64,000 bases of DNA, taken from contig JAJTGG010000002.1 in NCBI GenBank assembly GCA_021299355.1, positions 1 through 64,000 on the forward strand. The letters are read 5' to 3'. The position numbers were made by a program, and so were the translations under genes. Numbering within the stretch: position 1 is the stretch's first letter; each line of letters begins with the position of its first letter. The DNA is from Lysobacteraceae bacterium (GTDB taxonomy: Bacteria; Pseudomonadota; Gammaproteobacteria; Xanthomonadales; Xanthomonadaceae). The notes beneath the pieces are model-generated. The model saw only the letters and a list, made by a program, of their open reading frames with translations, was not told the origin of the DNA and did no database searches. Shown piece after piece: positions 1 to 7,581 of the stretch.

Positions 1-1007
1 TCCGCGAGCAGCTCGCGGTAGCGCTCCCCCATCCAGATGGTGTGATGCACGACCTCGGGATAGCTCCGGGTGGTGCCGAAATACAGGACATACAGACCCA
101 TGGAATATTCGGCCGCGGCCAGCTTGGCACGCACTGGCAGTGACTGCTTGCGGTGCGGAATCATCTGGCGGTAAAGGAAGGCCGGATCGGCATTGGACAC
201 GATCACGTCCGCCGCCATCACCGTGCCATCGGCAAGGATGACGGCCTCGGCCCGCTTTCCGGAAACCTGCAAGGCGGATACGGTGGTGTCGAGCAGGATG
301 CGGACACCCTGGCGCCGCATCAGGTCTTCAAGCGCGCGGGTGATGGCTCCCGTTCCGCCCATGGCGAAATGGACGCCGTAGGCGCGTTCAAGATAATGGA
401 TCAGACCGTAGATGCTAGTGGTGTCGAACGGATTGCCACCGACCAGCAGGGGCTGTATCGAAAACGCACGGCGCAGCTTCGGACTGCACAGGAAGCGGGA
501 CACCATCTGCCATACCGTCTCGTGCGATCGCAGGCGGAGCAGGCTTGGAATCTGACGGAGCATGGTCCACAGCCGGTGGAACGGCTGGGCGGACAGTTGG
601 GTGAAGCCGACATCGAAGATGCGCTGGGAATGGCGCAGCAGGGCCAGGTAACCCTCGACATCCCGGGGCTCAATGCGGCGGATTTCAGCCAGCGTCTGTT
701 CAAGCGTACCACCGTAATCGAACCGGCTGCCGTCACGGAATGCGAAGCGGTACCAGGGCGTCAGCGGCACCAGCCGGACATGATCGGAGAACTTCTCGTT
801 GAACAGCGCGAACAGTTCTTCGAAAAGGAACGGTGCGGTGATGACCGTCGGCCCGGCATCATGCCGGAAACCCTCGCGTTCGAACACACGGGCGCGGCCG
901 CCGATGTGATTGCAACGATCGATCAGAGTGACTTCATAACCTTTGGCACGCAGGCGCAGGGCCGCGGCAATGCCACCGAACCCGGCACCGACGACGATGG
1001 CGTGCAT
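1..1007 (-). CDS. crtI: Phytoene desaturase (CrtI family), C-terminus truncated by window edge
   Basis: Read on the minus strand from ATG at 1007: MHAIVVGAGFGGIAAALRLRAKGYEVTLIDRCNHIGGRARVFEREGFRHDAGPTVITAPFLFEELF..., an N-terminal FAD-binding GxGxxG motif plus CrtI-like GGRA and DAGPTVI blocks. Absent from the ORF list because it runs off the edge. TGATG overlap with crtE. Confidence 0.88.
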   Translation of the reverse strand, partial: MHAIVVGAGFGGIAAALRLRAKGYEVTLIDRCNHIGGRARVFEREGFRHDAGPTVITAPFLFEELFALFNEKFSDHVRLVPLTPWYRFAFRDGSRFDYGGTLEQTLAEIRRIEPRDVEGYLALLRHSQRIFDVGFTQLSAQPFHRLWTMLRQIPSLLRLRSHETVWQMVSRFLCSPKLRRAFSIQPLLVGGNPFDTTSIYGLIHYLERAYGVHFAMGGTGAITRALEDLMRRQGVRILLDTTVSALQVSGKRAEAVILADGTVMAADVIVSNADPAFLYRQMIPHRKQSLPVRAKLAAAEYSMGLYVLYFGTTRSYPEVVHHTIWMGERYRELLA

Positions 1008-1966
1008 CAGCAGGCTTCAAGGACGGATACGGCATCATCCAGTTTGGCGCGCATCCCGGCACAGTAGGCGAGCAGCATGCGCCCCGCGCCGCAGGGCAGA
1101 TTCACCGCATCTGCTTCGCATTGATCCAGATGGCTCGCGGCCAAGGCAACAGCCATCGGCAGGGCACGGGCCTGCAGACCGCGGTTCTGCATGATCAGGA
1201 CTATGTTGAGTGCAGGTGCGCTGGCGATCCCACCAGATCCGGTTTGCACGGGACGCGCCGCATCGATGGCTGTATCCTGGATGTCATCCAGGGCCTGATA
1301 GCTGATCGCGAAATTTTCACAGGCTGCCGTCGCCAGCGGAATGCTTTGCGCATTGCCGGAAAGCAGCAGGGAGAGTTCGATCGGTAGCGCGAGCAGCGCA
1401 CCCGACTTGGACTTGGCGATGGCCAGGTACTGTTCGACGGCATCCTCGCCCTCAGGCCGCTCGGCAAGATCGGCGCATTGTCCATGCACGGCACGGGCAA
1501 CACGCCGGTGTGTCAGGGCCAGGGCTTCGGGGAGTAAAGGATGGTTGCCGATACCGCCAAGGGCGGCATAGGCAGCGGACAGGAACAGGTCGCCGCAGCA
1601 CAGCGCCGTGTTCTTTCCGAATTGGTTCCAGATCGCCGGGACGCCGCGCCGGTAAAGGTCGCCGTCCTGCAGATCATCATGGATGAGCGAAGCATTGTGC
1701 AGCAGTTCGGCACAGGCGGCGATGCCGATAGCCTCGCTTTCGGACAGGCCCAGGGCCAGTGCCGAGCTGAGGCCGAGACGCGCCCTTACTTTCTGGCCGC
1801 CCGCCCGAAGATGGTATTCGGCAGGCGTGGAAACGCCGGGGTCGGCATCGGAAACCCATTCCGCGTGCATCCCGGTCAGCATCCGCATCCGGTCATCAAC
1901 GCCCTCAAGCAACTGGGCGAGTTTTGCCGATGGGGCTTCCGGGAAATTCAATAGGGTTCCGGGCAT
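1007..1966 (-). CDS. crtE: Geranylgeranyl diphosphate synthase / polyprenyl synthetase
   Basis: Asp-rich motifs HDDLQD and YQALDDIQD; adjacent to crtI. ORF opens at GTG 1999; the internal ATG at 1966 (MPGTLLNF) is a likelier start. Confidence 0.85.
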   Translation of the reverse strand: MPGTLLNFPEAPSAKLAQLLEGVDDRMRMLTGMHAEWVSDADPGVSTPAEYHLRAGGQKVRARLGLSSALALGLSESEAIGIAACAELLHNASLIHDDLQDGDLYRRGVPAIWNQFGKNTALCCGDLFLSAAYAALGGIGNHPLLPEALALTHRRVARAVHGQCADLAERPEGEDAVEQYLAIAKSKSGALLALPIELSLLLSGNAQSIPLATAACENFAISYQALDDIQDTAIDAARPVQTGSGGIASAPALNIVLIMQNRGLQARALPMAVALAASHLDQCEADAVNLPCGAGRMLLAYCAGMRAKLDDAVSVLEAC

Positions 1967-2006
1967 GGCGCATTTCCGGCTAGAGTGGGTTGCTGCCACA
2001 GACCGC

Positions 2007-2038
2007 CGCTTCCCCTGCCTCGAAAGGCAGGGAAAGCG
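2007..2038 (-). other. Inter-cistronic hairpin between proteorhodopsin and crtE
   Basis: cgcttcccctgcct-cgaa-aggcagggaaagcg: 13 of 14 positions paired, tetraloop cgaa, no T-tract after it on the transcribed strand. Confidence 0.7.
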
Positions 2039-2057
2039 TGGTCATGATTACCAGCTG

Positions 2058-2852
2058 TTAATGTTTTTCAGATTCACTGACTGCGACCGACCAGATGATC
2101 AGGCCGAAGGCAATCTTATTCAGGACGTCAGCGAAGTTGTAGGTGATGTTAAGCGCATTGGCGGTATCTGCCGGGCTGCCGCCGTTGAGATAACCCAGGA
2201 AATAGCCAAGCGGATAAACAGCCCAGCCCACGGTCACGATCCAACGCATCAGTTTGAAACCCGCTTGGACGGAAGCCGGTGCGCTGTTGGCGTTGACCTT
2301 GCTGGCTTCACCCATGAAGATTTCATAGAGGATGTATAACCAACCGGCCATACCGATGATGAATGCGGGCATGGCCTGCATGTAGCCGGCTTCACCTAAA
2401 TAGCCACCGACCAGCATCACCATGGTACCGATGATCAGGCGCCAGAAAATACCGGAAGACACCTTGGTGACCGCAGAGAGGATCAGATAGAACTCGACCA
2501 TCAGCAAGGGCACGGTAATCAGCCAGTCGATGTAGCGGAACACGGTTGGTGTGGAGCCCGTGGTGACCCAGACATCGCGCATGTAGAAGTAATGGACGGC
2601 CGCGATTAGGGTGACCAGTCCCGATACGGTCAGGGATGTTCTCCATTTTGGTGAGACACGATCACGCTCCAGGAAGAAGAAGACCGTGGAGGCGATGAGT
2701 GCCATCGAAATCAGCCAGAAGGAAATTCCGACGAAATCATCGCTGTTCAGAACGGATGACTCACCGGCTGAAGCCTGTGTCGCACCAAGGATAAGAGCGA
2801 GTGAAAAAACCGACTTGCCAATTGATTTTATAAAATTGTTTTTATGTAACAT
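2058..2852 (-). CDS. Proteorhodopsin (green-type light-driven proton pump)
   Basis: Helix C RYIDWLITVPLLMVEFYLIL gives the D/T/E pump motif (D109, T113, E120), Leu at the spectral tuning position, His in AAVHYFY, and retinal Lys in FADVLNKIAFGLIIW; N-terminal signal peptide. Confidence 0.97.
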   Translation of the reverse strand: MLHKNNFIKSIGKSVFSLALILGATQASAGESSVLNSDDFVGISFWLISMALIASTVFFFLERDRVSPKWRTSLTVSGLVTLIAAVHYFYMRDVWVTTGSTPTVFRYIDWLITVPLLMVEFYLILSAVTKVSSGIFWRLIIGTMVMLVGGYLGEAGYMQAMPAFIIGMAGWLYILYEIFMGEASKVNANSAPASVQAGFKLMRWIVTVGWAVYPLGYFLGYLNGGSPADTANALNITYNFADVLNKIAFGLIIWSVAVSESEKH

Positions 2853-2974
2853 TGCGTTTATCTCCTAAAGGATTAAATCAATGAACGACAGCACCCCGAT
2901 GAAAGCACTTGCCCCTTGCATGACAACTGCAAACCAACCAAAAACCTGCAATCTAGAAGTTGCATAGTTAGGTC

Positions 2975-3003
2975 ACAGTACGAAATTTATGTACTAATGT
3001 AAA
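2975..3003 (-). promoter_or_regulatory. Candidate promoter of the proteorhodopsin operon with inverted repeat in the spacer
   Basis: Minus strand TTTACA-N17-TACTGT; AGTAC-N9-GTACT inverted repeat (2977-2995) lies between the hexamers. The -10 is weak. Confidence 0.35.
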
Positions 3004-3168
3004 TACTCTAAAATAACGATTTTTTAATACTTAATGATAAATTAACAATTCCCGTTTTTGGCTTTCCCCTTGTCCTCATAGCACCGCACAAACCGTTTGG
3101 CATGGGCTTATCGAACAGGCATGATTCTGTCACCCTAGATAATCAATTTCAACAATTACTTAGCCTCT

Positions 3169-3639
3169 ATGAACGCACTCATCTTCCGCTGGGCCCGCCT
3201 GCACGAACTGACCGCCCCGGAGTGGCACGCCGTGATGGCTGCGCGTGAAGCGGTATTCATCGTCGAACAGAATTGTCCGTATCAGGATGCCGATGCGCTC
3301 GATGCGCAGTCCTGGCACCTGATTGGCACCTGCGACGGCCTTCTCGCCGCTTACCTGCGCGTGGTCGATCCGGGCCGCAAATCGGTGCATGCCGGCACGT
3401 TCTACGCCGAACCCTCGATCGGGCGTGTGCTGACCGCGACGGCCTTCCGCGGCAAAGGCTTCGGCCAACAGCTGATGCGCGAGGGCATCGCCGGTTGCGA
3501 TCGTCTGTTCCCCGGTCAGGGCATCCGCATCAGTGCGCAGTCCTATCTGCTGAATTTCTACCGGGCGCTCGGCTTTGTTGAAGTGGGTGATGAATACGAC
3601 GAAGACGGCATTCCGCATTTCGAAATGCGGCGCACCTGA
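3169..3639 (+). CDS. elaA: GNAT family N-acetyltransferase, ElaA-like
   Basis: EWHAVMAAREAVFIVEQNCPYQDADALD...GRVLTATAFRGKGFGQQLM is typical of ElaA. Confidence 0.85.
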   Translation: MNALIFRWARLHELTAPEWHAVMAAREAVFIVEQNCPYQDADALDAQSWHLIGTCDGLLAAYLRVVDPGRKSVHAGTFYAEPSIGRVLTATAFRGKGFGQQLMREGIAGCDRLFPGQGIRISAQSYLLNFYRALGFVEVGDEYDEDGIPHFEMRRT

Positions 3640-3642
3640 GCG

Positions 3643-4344
3643 CTAATCGGCCAAAAACCACCCGGTAATCGCCAGCCGGTCGGCGCCGGCCCAGGGCGCC
3701 ACCAGACTGACCGTGTGCGATTGCGGTACGCGGAACAGCGATAGCGTATTCCAGTACGGCACGAAGCTGTCAACCAGCCGGTCGGCATCATCATGGAACT
3801 GCAGTAGGCCGCCCCAATCGCTGTCCCAGTTTTTACTGAGATTGATGACGAACGCACACACCCGGTTCTCGTTGTCTTCGCGATCCTGATGCCGGGTCAG
3901 GAACTGGCCGGCGCGGTAACGCGTGCCTTGGGCGCTGACGCGGTTCACGGTCGGCTCGCCGGTCAGCCGGCGCGCGAACATCAGGAACTCGGCTGAGTTC
4001 AGGAATTCCAGCACCGTATGAAGCGGATTCGGTGCCCAGCCCTCTTTCATGGCACGCACGATCATGTAACTGTCGTAGGAAAACTGGAATTCGGATTTGG
4101 CGCGCGCATACGCCTTGTATAGCAGCGCCTGCCGGGCGGCCTCGTCCATGGCCGCATAAGTTTCCGCATCGATGGTGTGTGAGCTGCCGCCGGAGCGCTC
4201 GGCCAAGGCGAAGGGAATGTCGTCACGCAGACAGCGGTGCAGGGTTTCAGCGGCACCGGGCTGCAGAAAATCAGGAATCTGCACGCGCGTGTGCTGCACC
4301 AGCTGTTGGCGGTAGCGGTTCAGATCGATGGCGTTGTTGAGCAT
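3643..4344 (-). CDS. 2OG-Fe(II) oxygenase / prolyl 4-hydroxylase-like
   Basis: HQDRE...CAFVINLSKNWDSDWGGLLQFHD...FNTL/RVPQSHTVSLVAPWAGADRLAITGWF, the 2OG oxygenase HxD...H fold region. Confidence 0.8.
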   Translation of the reverse strand: MLNNAIDLNRYRQQLVQHTRVQIPDFLQPGAAETLHRCLRDDIPFALAERSGGSSHTIDAETYAAMDEAARQALLYKAYARAKSEFQFSYDSYMIVRAMKEGWAPNPLHTVLEFLNSAEFLMFARRLTGEPTVNRVSAQGTRYRAGQFLTRHQDREDNENRVCAFVINLSKNWDSDWGGLLQFHDDADRLVDSFVPYWNTLSLFRVPQSHTVSLVAPWAGADRLAITGWFLAD

Positions 4345-4347
4345 GGC

Positions 4348-6054
4348 TCAGTACCCGGCGGCTTGGCCGTCTTTACGGCTTTCACTGGCGCCGACGTAGC
4401 CACCCTCCGGATTGACCTTGATGGCTTGATAGCCGCCGTACGGACCGTCGGCGTAACGCACGCTATGCCCCTTGCGCATCAGGGCGCGGATGGTGCTGTA
4501 GGCAAATCCGGTTTCCAGATCGACCTCGCCACCATCGGCCATTGCCACAGCCTGACCGGCCGGATCGGTCGAACCATCATGCTGGATGCGCGGCGCATCG
4601 CCGGCTTCCTGCAGGTTCATGCCGAAATCAACCAGATTGATCACGATCTGGGCGTGGCCCTGTGGCTGCATGGCGCCACCCATCAGCCCGAAACTGATCC
4701 AGGGCTTTCCATCCTTGGTGATGAAGGCCGGAATGATGGTGTGGAACGGGCGCTTGCCCGGTGCGAAGCTGTTGGCATGGCCGGTTTTGAGCACGAACTG
4801 TTCACCGCGGTCCTGGAAAATGAAACCGAGTCCGGGCGGCGCCATGCCGCTACCCATGCCGCGGTAATTGGATTGGATCAACGAGACCATCATGCCGTCG
4901 GCATCGGCGGTGGTCAGATAAATGGTGTCTCCTTCATTCAGTTCGGGAATGATGCCCGGCTCGGTCGCTTTCATGGCCTTGTCCATCGAAATCAATTTGC
5001 CGCGCTCGCGCGCATAGTCCTTGGAGATCAGGCGGGCCACCGGGGTCTTGTAGAAATCCGGATCGGCATAAGACGCGGCACGATCGGCAAACGCCAGTTT
5101 CTTGGCCTCGACAAACAGGTGTATGTGTTCGGTGCTGCCGAAGCCGTAAGCTTTCAGATCATACGGCTCGAGCAGATTCAGAATCTGTAACGCAGCGATG
5201 CCCTGTCCGTTCGGCGGCAGCTCCCAGACATCGTAACCGCGGTAGTTGGTGCTGACCGGCGTGACCCACTCGCCCTGATGCGTAGCCAGGTCTTCATAGC
5301 GCAGGAAGCCGTCGTTGGCCTTGAAATAGGTGTCAATACTCCGGGCGATGGCACCCTTGTAGAACGCATCGCGTCCTTCATGGCCGATGATTTCCAGGGT
5401 GCTGGCCAGATTCGGATTGCGCCAGCGTTCGCCAGTGCGTGGCGCGCGTTTGCCGTCCACGGTGAATTGTTCGGAAAAACCCGGCCACTTCGACAGGGTT
5501 GGCACACTGCGGCCCCAGTAGTAGGCGATGGTTTCATGCACGGGGTGACCCTCGCGCGCATAGGCGATGGTCGGTGCCAGATTCTGCGCCATGCTGCGCT
5601 TGCCGAAGCGGGCATGCAACGCGAACCAGGCGTCCACCGTGCCCGGCACGGTCACCGGAAGCGGGCCATGTGAAGGGATGTCGGCCAGTCCGCGACGCTG
5701 GAACTCGGCCAGGCTGAGCGCTTTCGGCGACCGGCCCGAGCCGTTATAACCGTGAAGCTTCCGGGTTTTCGGATCCCATACGATGGCGAACAGGTCGCCG
5801 CCGATGCCATTGCCGGTCGGCTCCATCAGCCCGAGCGCGGCATTGGCGGCAATGGCGGCGTCCATCGCACTGCCACCCTCGCGCATGGTCTGCAAGGCAA
5901 TCTGGGTCGCCAGCGGGTGCGAGGTCGCGGCCATCGCCTTCGGCGCATATACTTCACTGCGCAAGGCAAAGCTCGGCCCGGTGATGCGATCGGCGGCATG
6001 CAGACCGAAAGCGGCCAGAACACCTAGCAAGCCTAATTTTTGGCACAATGTCAT
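4348..6054 (-). CDS. ggt: Gamma-glutamyltransferase family protein
   Basis: NGIGGDLFAIVWD, SHGPLPVTVPGTVDAW, PPNGQGIAALQILN, GDTIYLTTADADGMMVSLIQS; N-terminal signal-like segment. Start chosen at ATG 6054. Confidence 0.88.
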   Translation of the reverse strand: MTLCQKLGLLGVLAAFGLHAADRITGPSFALRSEVYAPKAMAATSHPLATQIALQTMREGGSAMDAAIAANAALGLMEPTGNGIGGDLFAIVWDPKTRKLHGYNGSGRSPKALSLAEFQRRGLADIPSHGPLPVTVPGTVDAWFALHARFGKRSMAQNLAPTIAYAREGHPVHETIAYYWGRSVPTLSKWPGFSEQFTVDGKRAPRTGERWRNPNLASTLEIIGHEGRDAFYKGAIARSIDTYFKANDGFLRYEDLATHQGEWVTPVSTNYRGYDVWELPPNGQGIAALQILNLLEPYDLKAYGFGSTEHIHLFVEAKKLAFADRAASYADPDFYKTPVARLISKDYARERGKLISMDKAMKATEPGIIPELNEGDTIYLTTADADGMMVSLIQSNYRGMGSGMAPPGLGFIFQDRGEQFVLKTGHANSFAPGKRPFHTIIPAFITKDGKPWISFGLMGGAMQPQGHAQIVINLVDFGMNLQEAGDAPRIQHDGSTDPAGQAVAMADGGEVDLETGFAYSTIRALMRKGHSVRYADGPYGGYQAIKVNPEGGYVGASESRKDGQAAGY

Positions 6055-6073
6055 AACGTCTCCGGTGGTAGCC

Positions 6074-6718
6074 ATGGCCCAGATCAACCCGATTTTCAGC
6101 GTTCCGTTCGCTTTCGACCAACTGGATGATTGTGCCAGTTTAAATCAGGCCCTGCGCGAATTGTTCATCCGCCGCGAAGCCCAGGGCCCGCGCTTCGCCA
6201 ATCCGAATCCGTACACGCCGCGCAACAAGGAGCTGTTCGAAAGCAATTTCGACCTGTTCAGCTGGCCGGAAGCCTGCATCGCCGAACTGAGCGAATTCTG
6301 TCTGTCGCGGATCGTGCAGACCGTGGCCGAACTCAACCGTTACGATGCGGCACGCATGGCGCGCCTGCAGATCGTCACCGATGCCTGGTTCCACATCACC
6401 CGTCGCGGCGGTTTCTTCGGCGTGCACAACCATCCCATGGCGTCCTGGTCGGCGGTGTACTGCGTCAGCGCCGGCGAGCACGATGCCGACCAACCCGACT
6501 CGGGCCGGCTCAGTTTCATCAATCCGATGGCCCAGATGTATCTGGATGCCGGCAATTCCCAGCTGGGCTTTCCCTACCAGCTCGGCAATTACGCATTCGA
6601 CCTGAAGCCGGGCATGCTGGTGATCTTCCCGTCCTGGGTGCAGCATCAGGTCATGCCGTTCTACGGCGAAGGCGAACGCATCACCGTCGCCTTGAACTGC
6701 GCGATGCATTTCAAATGA
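6074..6718 (+). CDS. 2OG-Fe(II) oxygenase, TIGR02466-like
   Basis: [25 protein letters not shown]...SGRLSFINP...[17 protein letters not shown]. Real start ATG 6074, not 5783. Confidence 0.75.
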
Positions 6719-7581
6719 TCGACACCGCTCTGGTCAGCGGCGTCCTGCTGCCGGCGTCGCTCGGCATCATCATGCTCGGTCTGGGCATGACCCTTCATCC
6801 GGCCGACTTCCGCCGCATCCTGAGTCAACCCAAAGCGGTACTGATCGGGCTGGGCGTGCAGATGCTGCTGCTGACCGCGATCTGCTTCGGTCTGTGTCTG
6901 CTGCTGCAGCTGCCACCGGAACTGGCGGTGGGCATGATGCTGCTGGCGGCCGCGCCGGGCGGTGCCAGCGCCAACATCTATTCGCATCTGGCCGGCGGCG
7001 ATGTGGCGCTGAATATCACCCTGACTGCGGTCAATTCGCTGCTGTGTCTGCTCAGCCTGCCGCTGATCGTCGGGTTCTCTCTGGCCTATTTCATGGCGGC
7101 CGATCAGGCGGTGCCGCCGCCGTTCGCCAAGATCATAGAGGTCGGTGTCATCATCCTGCTGCCGGTCGCCATCGGCATGGGTATCCGGCGCACCTGGCCG
7201 CAGTGGTCCGACCGCGTCGAGAAACCCCTGCGTGTGTTTTCGGTGCTGCTGCTGGCTCTGCTGGTGGCACTGACCATGATTCAACAATGGCAGCTGCTGG
7301 CCGAATATGCGGCGATCATCGGACTGGCCTGCGTACTGTTCAATGTGCTTTCCCTGCTGATCGGATACACGGTGCCGCTCGCCCTGAAGCTGCCGCGCCG
7401 GCAGGCCATCGCGATTGCCATGGAGATCGGCATCCACAACGGAACCCTGGCCCTGTTCGTGGCATTCACAGTACTGGACAACAGCGTGTTGGCGGTTCCC
7501 GCGGCGTTCTATTCAATCAGCATGTTCATTACCGCCGGGCTGTTTGCGGCCTGGCTGAATCGCCCTGCCCGGGCGGCATGA
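6715..7581 (+). CDS. Bile acid:sodium symporter (BASS) family transporter
   Basis: Multi-[38 protein letters not shown] overlap with the upstream gene. Confidence 0.85.

Follow-up and report, generated by a model that had tools for sequence, protein, structure and literature searches.

The residue roles of proteorhodopsin and the pathway that supplies its retinal are established (e.g., PMC10284914, PMC9239080). Six-gene sets combining a rhodopsin with retinal biosynthesis are well known in lake bacteria, and the transfer of freshwater proteorhodopsin cassettes has been published for Methylophilaceae (PMC6794327) and for Nitrosospira (NspGL1) (PMC9239080). The freshwater betaproteobacterial clusters, which also include Polynucleobacter, resemble the locus described here in gene order, green-type rhodopsin, full retinal pathway and horizontal acquisition; the closest of them are the loci L015 and L016. 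The present host differs in lying outside the Betaproteobacteria, to judge from the name under which its nearest relative was deposited (uncultured Gammaproteobacteria), and apart from the rhodopsin and CrtI its proteins are only about 47–60% identical to those of L015. In the open-access literature, subscription journals being outside the search, we found no paper on a rhodopsin from this order.

The analyzed DNA, a stretch of 64,000 nucleotides referred to below as the window, begins at base 1 of contig C73 of genome G000 (1.66 Mb, 74 contigs, 85% complete). A second contig of this genome, C64 (7282 bp), continues with the 3' end of crtI, crtB, crtY, and blh. The features of the two contigs are as follows.

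Window 1..114, no strand: terminal segment of contig C73; the last 114 bp of contig C64 have the same sequence.
Window 3..1007, minus strand, running off the window edge: crtI, phytoene desaturase, N-terminal 335 of 491 aa (crtI_fam TIGR02734, 347 bits, cut-off 238).
Window 1007..1999, minus strand: crtE, geranylgeranyl diphosphate synthase-like (PF00348, polyprenyl_synt, 131 bits, cut-off 27).
Window 2002..2043, minus strand: stem-loop with a UUCG loop and no U-run, 14 nt after the rhodopsin stop, −30.1 kcal/mol, kept in L014.
Window 2058..2852, minus strand: green-type proteorhodopsin, 264 aa (PF01036, Bac_rhodopsin, 159.8 bits, cut-off 24.6).
Window 2853..3050, minus strand: A+T-rich upstream region, presumed promoter region, conserved with G001.
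C64 (L009) 6700-7281, minus strand: crtI 3' end; the frame joined across C73 and C64 has no stop and encodes 491 aa.
C64 (L009) 5766-6722, minus strand: crtB (198 bits, profile search of the genome).
C64 (L009) 4619-5776, minus strand: crtY (176 bits, same search).
C64 (L009) 3750-4622, minus strand: blh (141.5 bits, same search).

The operon order is thus rhodopsin-crtE-crtI-crtB-crtY-blh, and the rhodopsin is accompanied by every gene of a self-sufficient photosystem. The original prediction had read a rhodopsin, crtE, and crtI in one direction at the left edge, with a TGATG shared by the crtE stop and the crtI start; all of this was confirmed, on the minus strand and with profile scores far above the cut-offs. 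The prediction also hinged on the genome holding crtB, crtY, and blh, which it expected to the left of position 1, and all three were found, on C64, where they had been placed. The crtE frame opens with GTG; the first ATG, at 1966, is the probable start and gives 319 aa, and the translation contains the motifs DDLQD and DDIQD. Because the assembly is fragmented and incomplete, the case for joining C73 to C64 is built on the 114-bp overlap and a second genome of the same genus, G001, in which the six genes are unbroken on one contig in the same order and encode proteins 92–98% identical to those of the window. Contig C33 of G001 and the public contig L014 carry the same rhodopsin and are treated together as G001/L014.

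The block shared with G001, at 93.6% nucleotide identity, begins where blh ends and reaches 198 bp beyond the rhodopsin start on its upstream side (window about 3050), which indicates that the upstream region travels with the operon genes. The GC content is 38% in 2853-3168, compared with 61% across the window. Scanning the region ahead of the rhodopsin for sigma-70 promoters gave nothing above chance level, so a promoter there is only presumed. An Rfam search of window 1-3300 matched no known family.

We consider it highly probable that this locus is a complete proteorhodopsin photosystem operon, predicted to make retinal and a green-light proton pump, and that, in the simplest case, the operon reached the common ancestor of G000 and G001 in one piece from a freshwater pool in which Betaproteobacteria account for most of the other members sampled. 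CrtE, CrtB, CrtI, and CrtY would produce beta-carotene, which Blh would split to retinal, and the retinal would form a Schiff base with Lys246. Absorbed green light would then drive a proton outward via Asp109 as acceptor and Glu120 as donor. Such export would add to the proton-motive force of the host, a presumed heterotroph, which may benefit from light in this way. By shielding or partly terminating the rhodopsin message, the stem-loop downstream of the rhodopsin gene would probably yield more pump than pathway enzyme.

This stem-loop is the part of the locus that goes beyond what is known. The whole rhodopsin-crtE spacer of the window folds better than all but one of 200 shuffles (z −3.25). 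The first 80 bases downstream of the rhodopsin stop were compared with 40 dinucleotide shuffles per locus in a mainly freshwater, dereplicated sample (65 loci, threshold 93% rhodopsin identity); in 45 loci the native sequence folded better than every shuffle (median z −3.9). The same test succeeded in 3/51 cases after crtE, 3/49 after crtI, 5/49 after crtB, 3/47 after crtY, and 4/42 after blh, control regions that are partly coding. Stems stand at the equivalent position in most of the other freshwater operons (L014-L093), and they are often unrelated in sequence. In seven related loci, picked because they could be aligned and hand-aligned on the stem, 5 of the 12 pairs show double changes that compensate each other, and a single pair, next to the loop, is broken. 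Stem-loops matched by none of 60 shuffles each also follow two distant proteorhodopsins of the order and the rhodopsins of the two readable xanthorhodopsin cassettes of the genus; the result for the other xanthorhodopsins of the order was mixed. No mention of a stem-loop after a proteorhodopsin was found in the open-access literature, most subscription journals lying outside this search.

The puf operon of purple bacteria offers a parallel. Its structural proteins are abundant, and its hairpins likewise separate the gene of such a protein from the remainder of a phototrophy operon. These intercistronic hairpins are the model for raising the rhodopsin message over the pathway message (PMC7509114). 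The genes and sequences are unrelated. Hairpins of the puf type stabilize mRNA, letting the part of the message ahead of them persist longer than the part behind, and a comparable effect is presumed in the rhodopsin case. By this analogy, the window stem-loop is presumed to be an expression-ratio element that raises the rhodopsin message over that of the pathway. We give an even chance to the broader proposal that photosystem operons of both the proteorhodopsin and xanthorhodopsin types generally carry a stem-loop after the rhodopsin gene, selected for its structure and not its sequence, and that this element controls how much rhodopsin is made relative to the retinal enzymes. Like its counterpart in the puf operon, such an element would be a regulatory solution common to these operons, having either evolved several times or been renewed again and again. 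Stem-loops of this kind would explain, in a way that can be tested directly, how cells could obtain rhodopsin in excess of the retinal-pathway enzymes from a single gene cluster.

Another possible, though rather unlikely, explanation is that the stem-loop is an ordinary terminator, the rhodopsin being a separate transcript and the crt genes being transcribed from a promoter of their own. A U-run does follow 9 of the 45 significant stems, and some of these stems come near the classical form of an intrinsic terminator. However, 36 of the 45, including that of the window, have no U-run; after the window stem, no more than 3 of 8 bases are T, and a terminator scan called no terminator there. In the window, just 91 bp separate the rhodopsin gene from crtE, and a scan for sigma-70 types found no promoter-like site in this gap.

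The expression-ratio reading concerns how the cassette works; its relatives bear on where it came from. The closest rhodopsin in the genome collection is that of G001/L014 (94%), followed mostly by rhodopsins of lake and other freshwater Betaproteobacteria at about 70–82%, going by record names of which some are clearly misassigned. Verrucomicrobiota and others also occur among the relatives, and the gene order is the same in most related loci that are long enough to show it. A rhodopsin phylogeny, one of the checks named with the original prediction, was built by a quick method with SH-aLRT support only, as was a tree of concatenated crtI, crtB, crtY, and blh; some reference rows have long branches, while those around the window are short. 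In the rhodopsin tree, the window and G001 are sister to L015/L016 (Sulfuritalea and Burkholderiales MAGs; support 96) and nest within a mainly betaproteobacterial freshwater clade. The concatenated tree gives the same sister group (support 100), which argues that the cassette was transferred whole. The predicted proton-pumping rhodopsin with its retinal operon is supported, with the amendment that the cassette is a further case of horizontal acquisition in fresh water and did not originate in this lineage. With it, the freshwater proteorhodopsin pool gains a gammaproteobacterial host.

The record of this acquisition is unusually clear, in that a close relative shows the site intact and without the operon. 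In G001, the operon sits between the gene of a presumed outer-membrane protein (labelled DUF481 by eye, without a family search) and the gene of an ACTWNEP-containing protein. In G015, a member of the same genus without rhodopsin, these two genes adjoin directly and are followed by a GNAT-like gene, which also flanks the operon in the window. In the window genome, the operon lies between cdgsh and the GNAT-like gene, and four genes that G015 has at that place are absent; the flank has thus been rearranged, most simply after the insertion. An isocitrate-dehydrogenase tree groups G000 with G001 (97/92), with G015 next (100/100). A single gain before the split of G000 and G001 is the simplest reading, although there may instead have been a loss in G015. 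As a separate observation, a gamma-glutamyltransferase-like gene (window 4348-6087, minus strand; L131 1540-3276) has just 74% identity to its G001 counterpart, compared with 92–98% for its neighbours, possibly owing to replacement by recombination.

Rhodopsin was found in 5 of the 28 genomes of the genus, and blh in exactly the same five. Three of the five (G002, G010, and G025) carry a xanthorhodopsin cassette instead, whose best solved match is psXR (249.8 bits). In these cassettes (L124 3012-10235 in G002, L125 in G010, L126 in G025), the rhodopsin is followed by crtE-I-B-Y-blh as in the window, and, in the two that can be read, by a stem-loop. They differ from the window in their rhodopsin subfamily, with glycine at the antenna position (read on L013), and in their genomic site; that of G002 lies beside unrelated genes, and its blh is followed by a type 2 isopentenyl-diphosphate isomerase-like gene. 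The uptake of an antenna-less and an antenna-type cassette within one genus provides a natural comparison of light-harvesting designs. Across the order, 16 of 398 genomes have a rhodopsin above the family cut-off, and the full-length ones group with xanthorhodopsins, except in two genomes, where they fall with distant proteorhodopsins.

This distribution also bears on vertical inheritance, in which the cassette would be ancestral to the genus and lost in most species. Streamlined genomes often lose genes, and three other species of the genus do own a rhodopsin cassette. However, those three are xanthorhodopsins at another site, and we reject this improbable explanation because they belong to a different rhodopsin subfamily. 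The nesting of the window rhodopsin inside a mainly betaproteobacterial clade and the intact gene pair of G015 at the G001 site also argue against it.

The best solved matches of the window rhodopsin are the green and blue proteorhodopsins GPR and BPR, the green ones being its best solved relatives (292.7 bits, E 2.4e-86), and the rhodopsin tree places it with GPR/BPR and the freshwater clade against the xanthorhodopsins (support 100). In an alignment with GPR, residues H87, D109, T113, L117, E120, and K246 correspond to GPR positions 75, 97, 101, 105, 108, and 231. The pump residues D109, T113, and E120, the conserved histidine, the retinal lysine, and the leucine at the green/blue tuning position, all named in the original prediction, were thus correctly assigned. 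The protein shares with GPR (PDB 8cqc/2l6x) the Asp97, Thr101, and Glu108 pump residues and the equivalents of His75, Leu105, and Lys231; overall, the two sequences are only moderately similar. It is therefore predicted, from residues and alignment, to be a green-type, light-driven outward proton pump.

An antenna is not expected. Glycine at the position of XR Gly156 is the criterion for an antenna-binding rhodopsin (PMC12308411), and the window rhodopsin has Phe164 there, so no carotenoid antenna should be bound. A search for a crtZ-type hydroxylase gave a single FA_hydroxylase-family match, a 298-aa open frame on a different contig.

It is very improbable that the rhodopsin is instead a light sensor or a pump for another ion. 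Residue rules only predict a function, which leaves some room for either alternative. However, the D/T/E set together with His87 is that of proton-pumping proteorhodopsins, as are the best solved matches, and no transducer gene occurs among the immediate neighbours that were read. Contamination or a binning artefact from a betaproteobacterium, suggested by the betaproteobacterial nearest relatives outside the genus and by the involvement of two contigs, is rejected as barely credible, since the independent genome G001 has the same operon at 94% beside genes that G015 also has, and the window rhodopsin shares its contig with 61 kb of host genes, with orthologues within the genus for the neighbouring p4h, GNAT-like, and other genes.

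Reduced cassettes occur elsewhere: in L019 the rhodopsin is followed directly by blh, and in L056 by crtY and blh only. Additionally, contig C92 of G133 (L149), from the same order, carries beside an intact rhodopsin a second, fragmentary one with an internal TGA, possibly a decaying copy.
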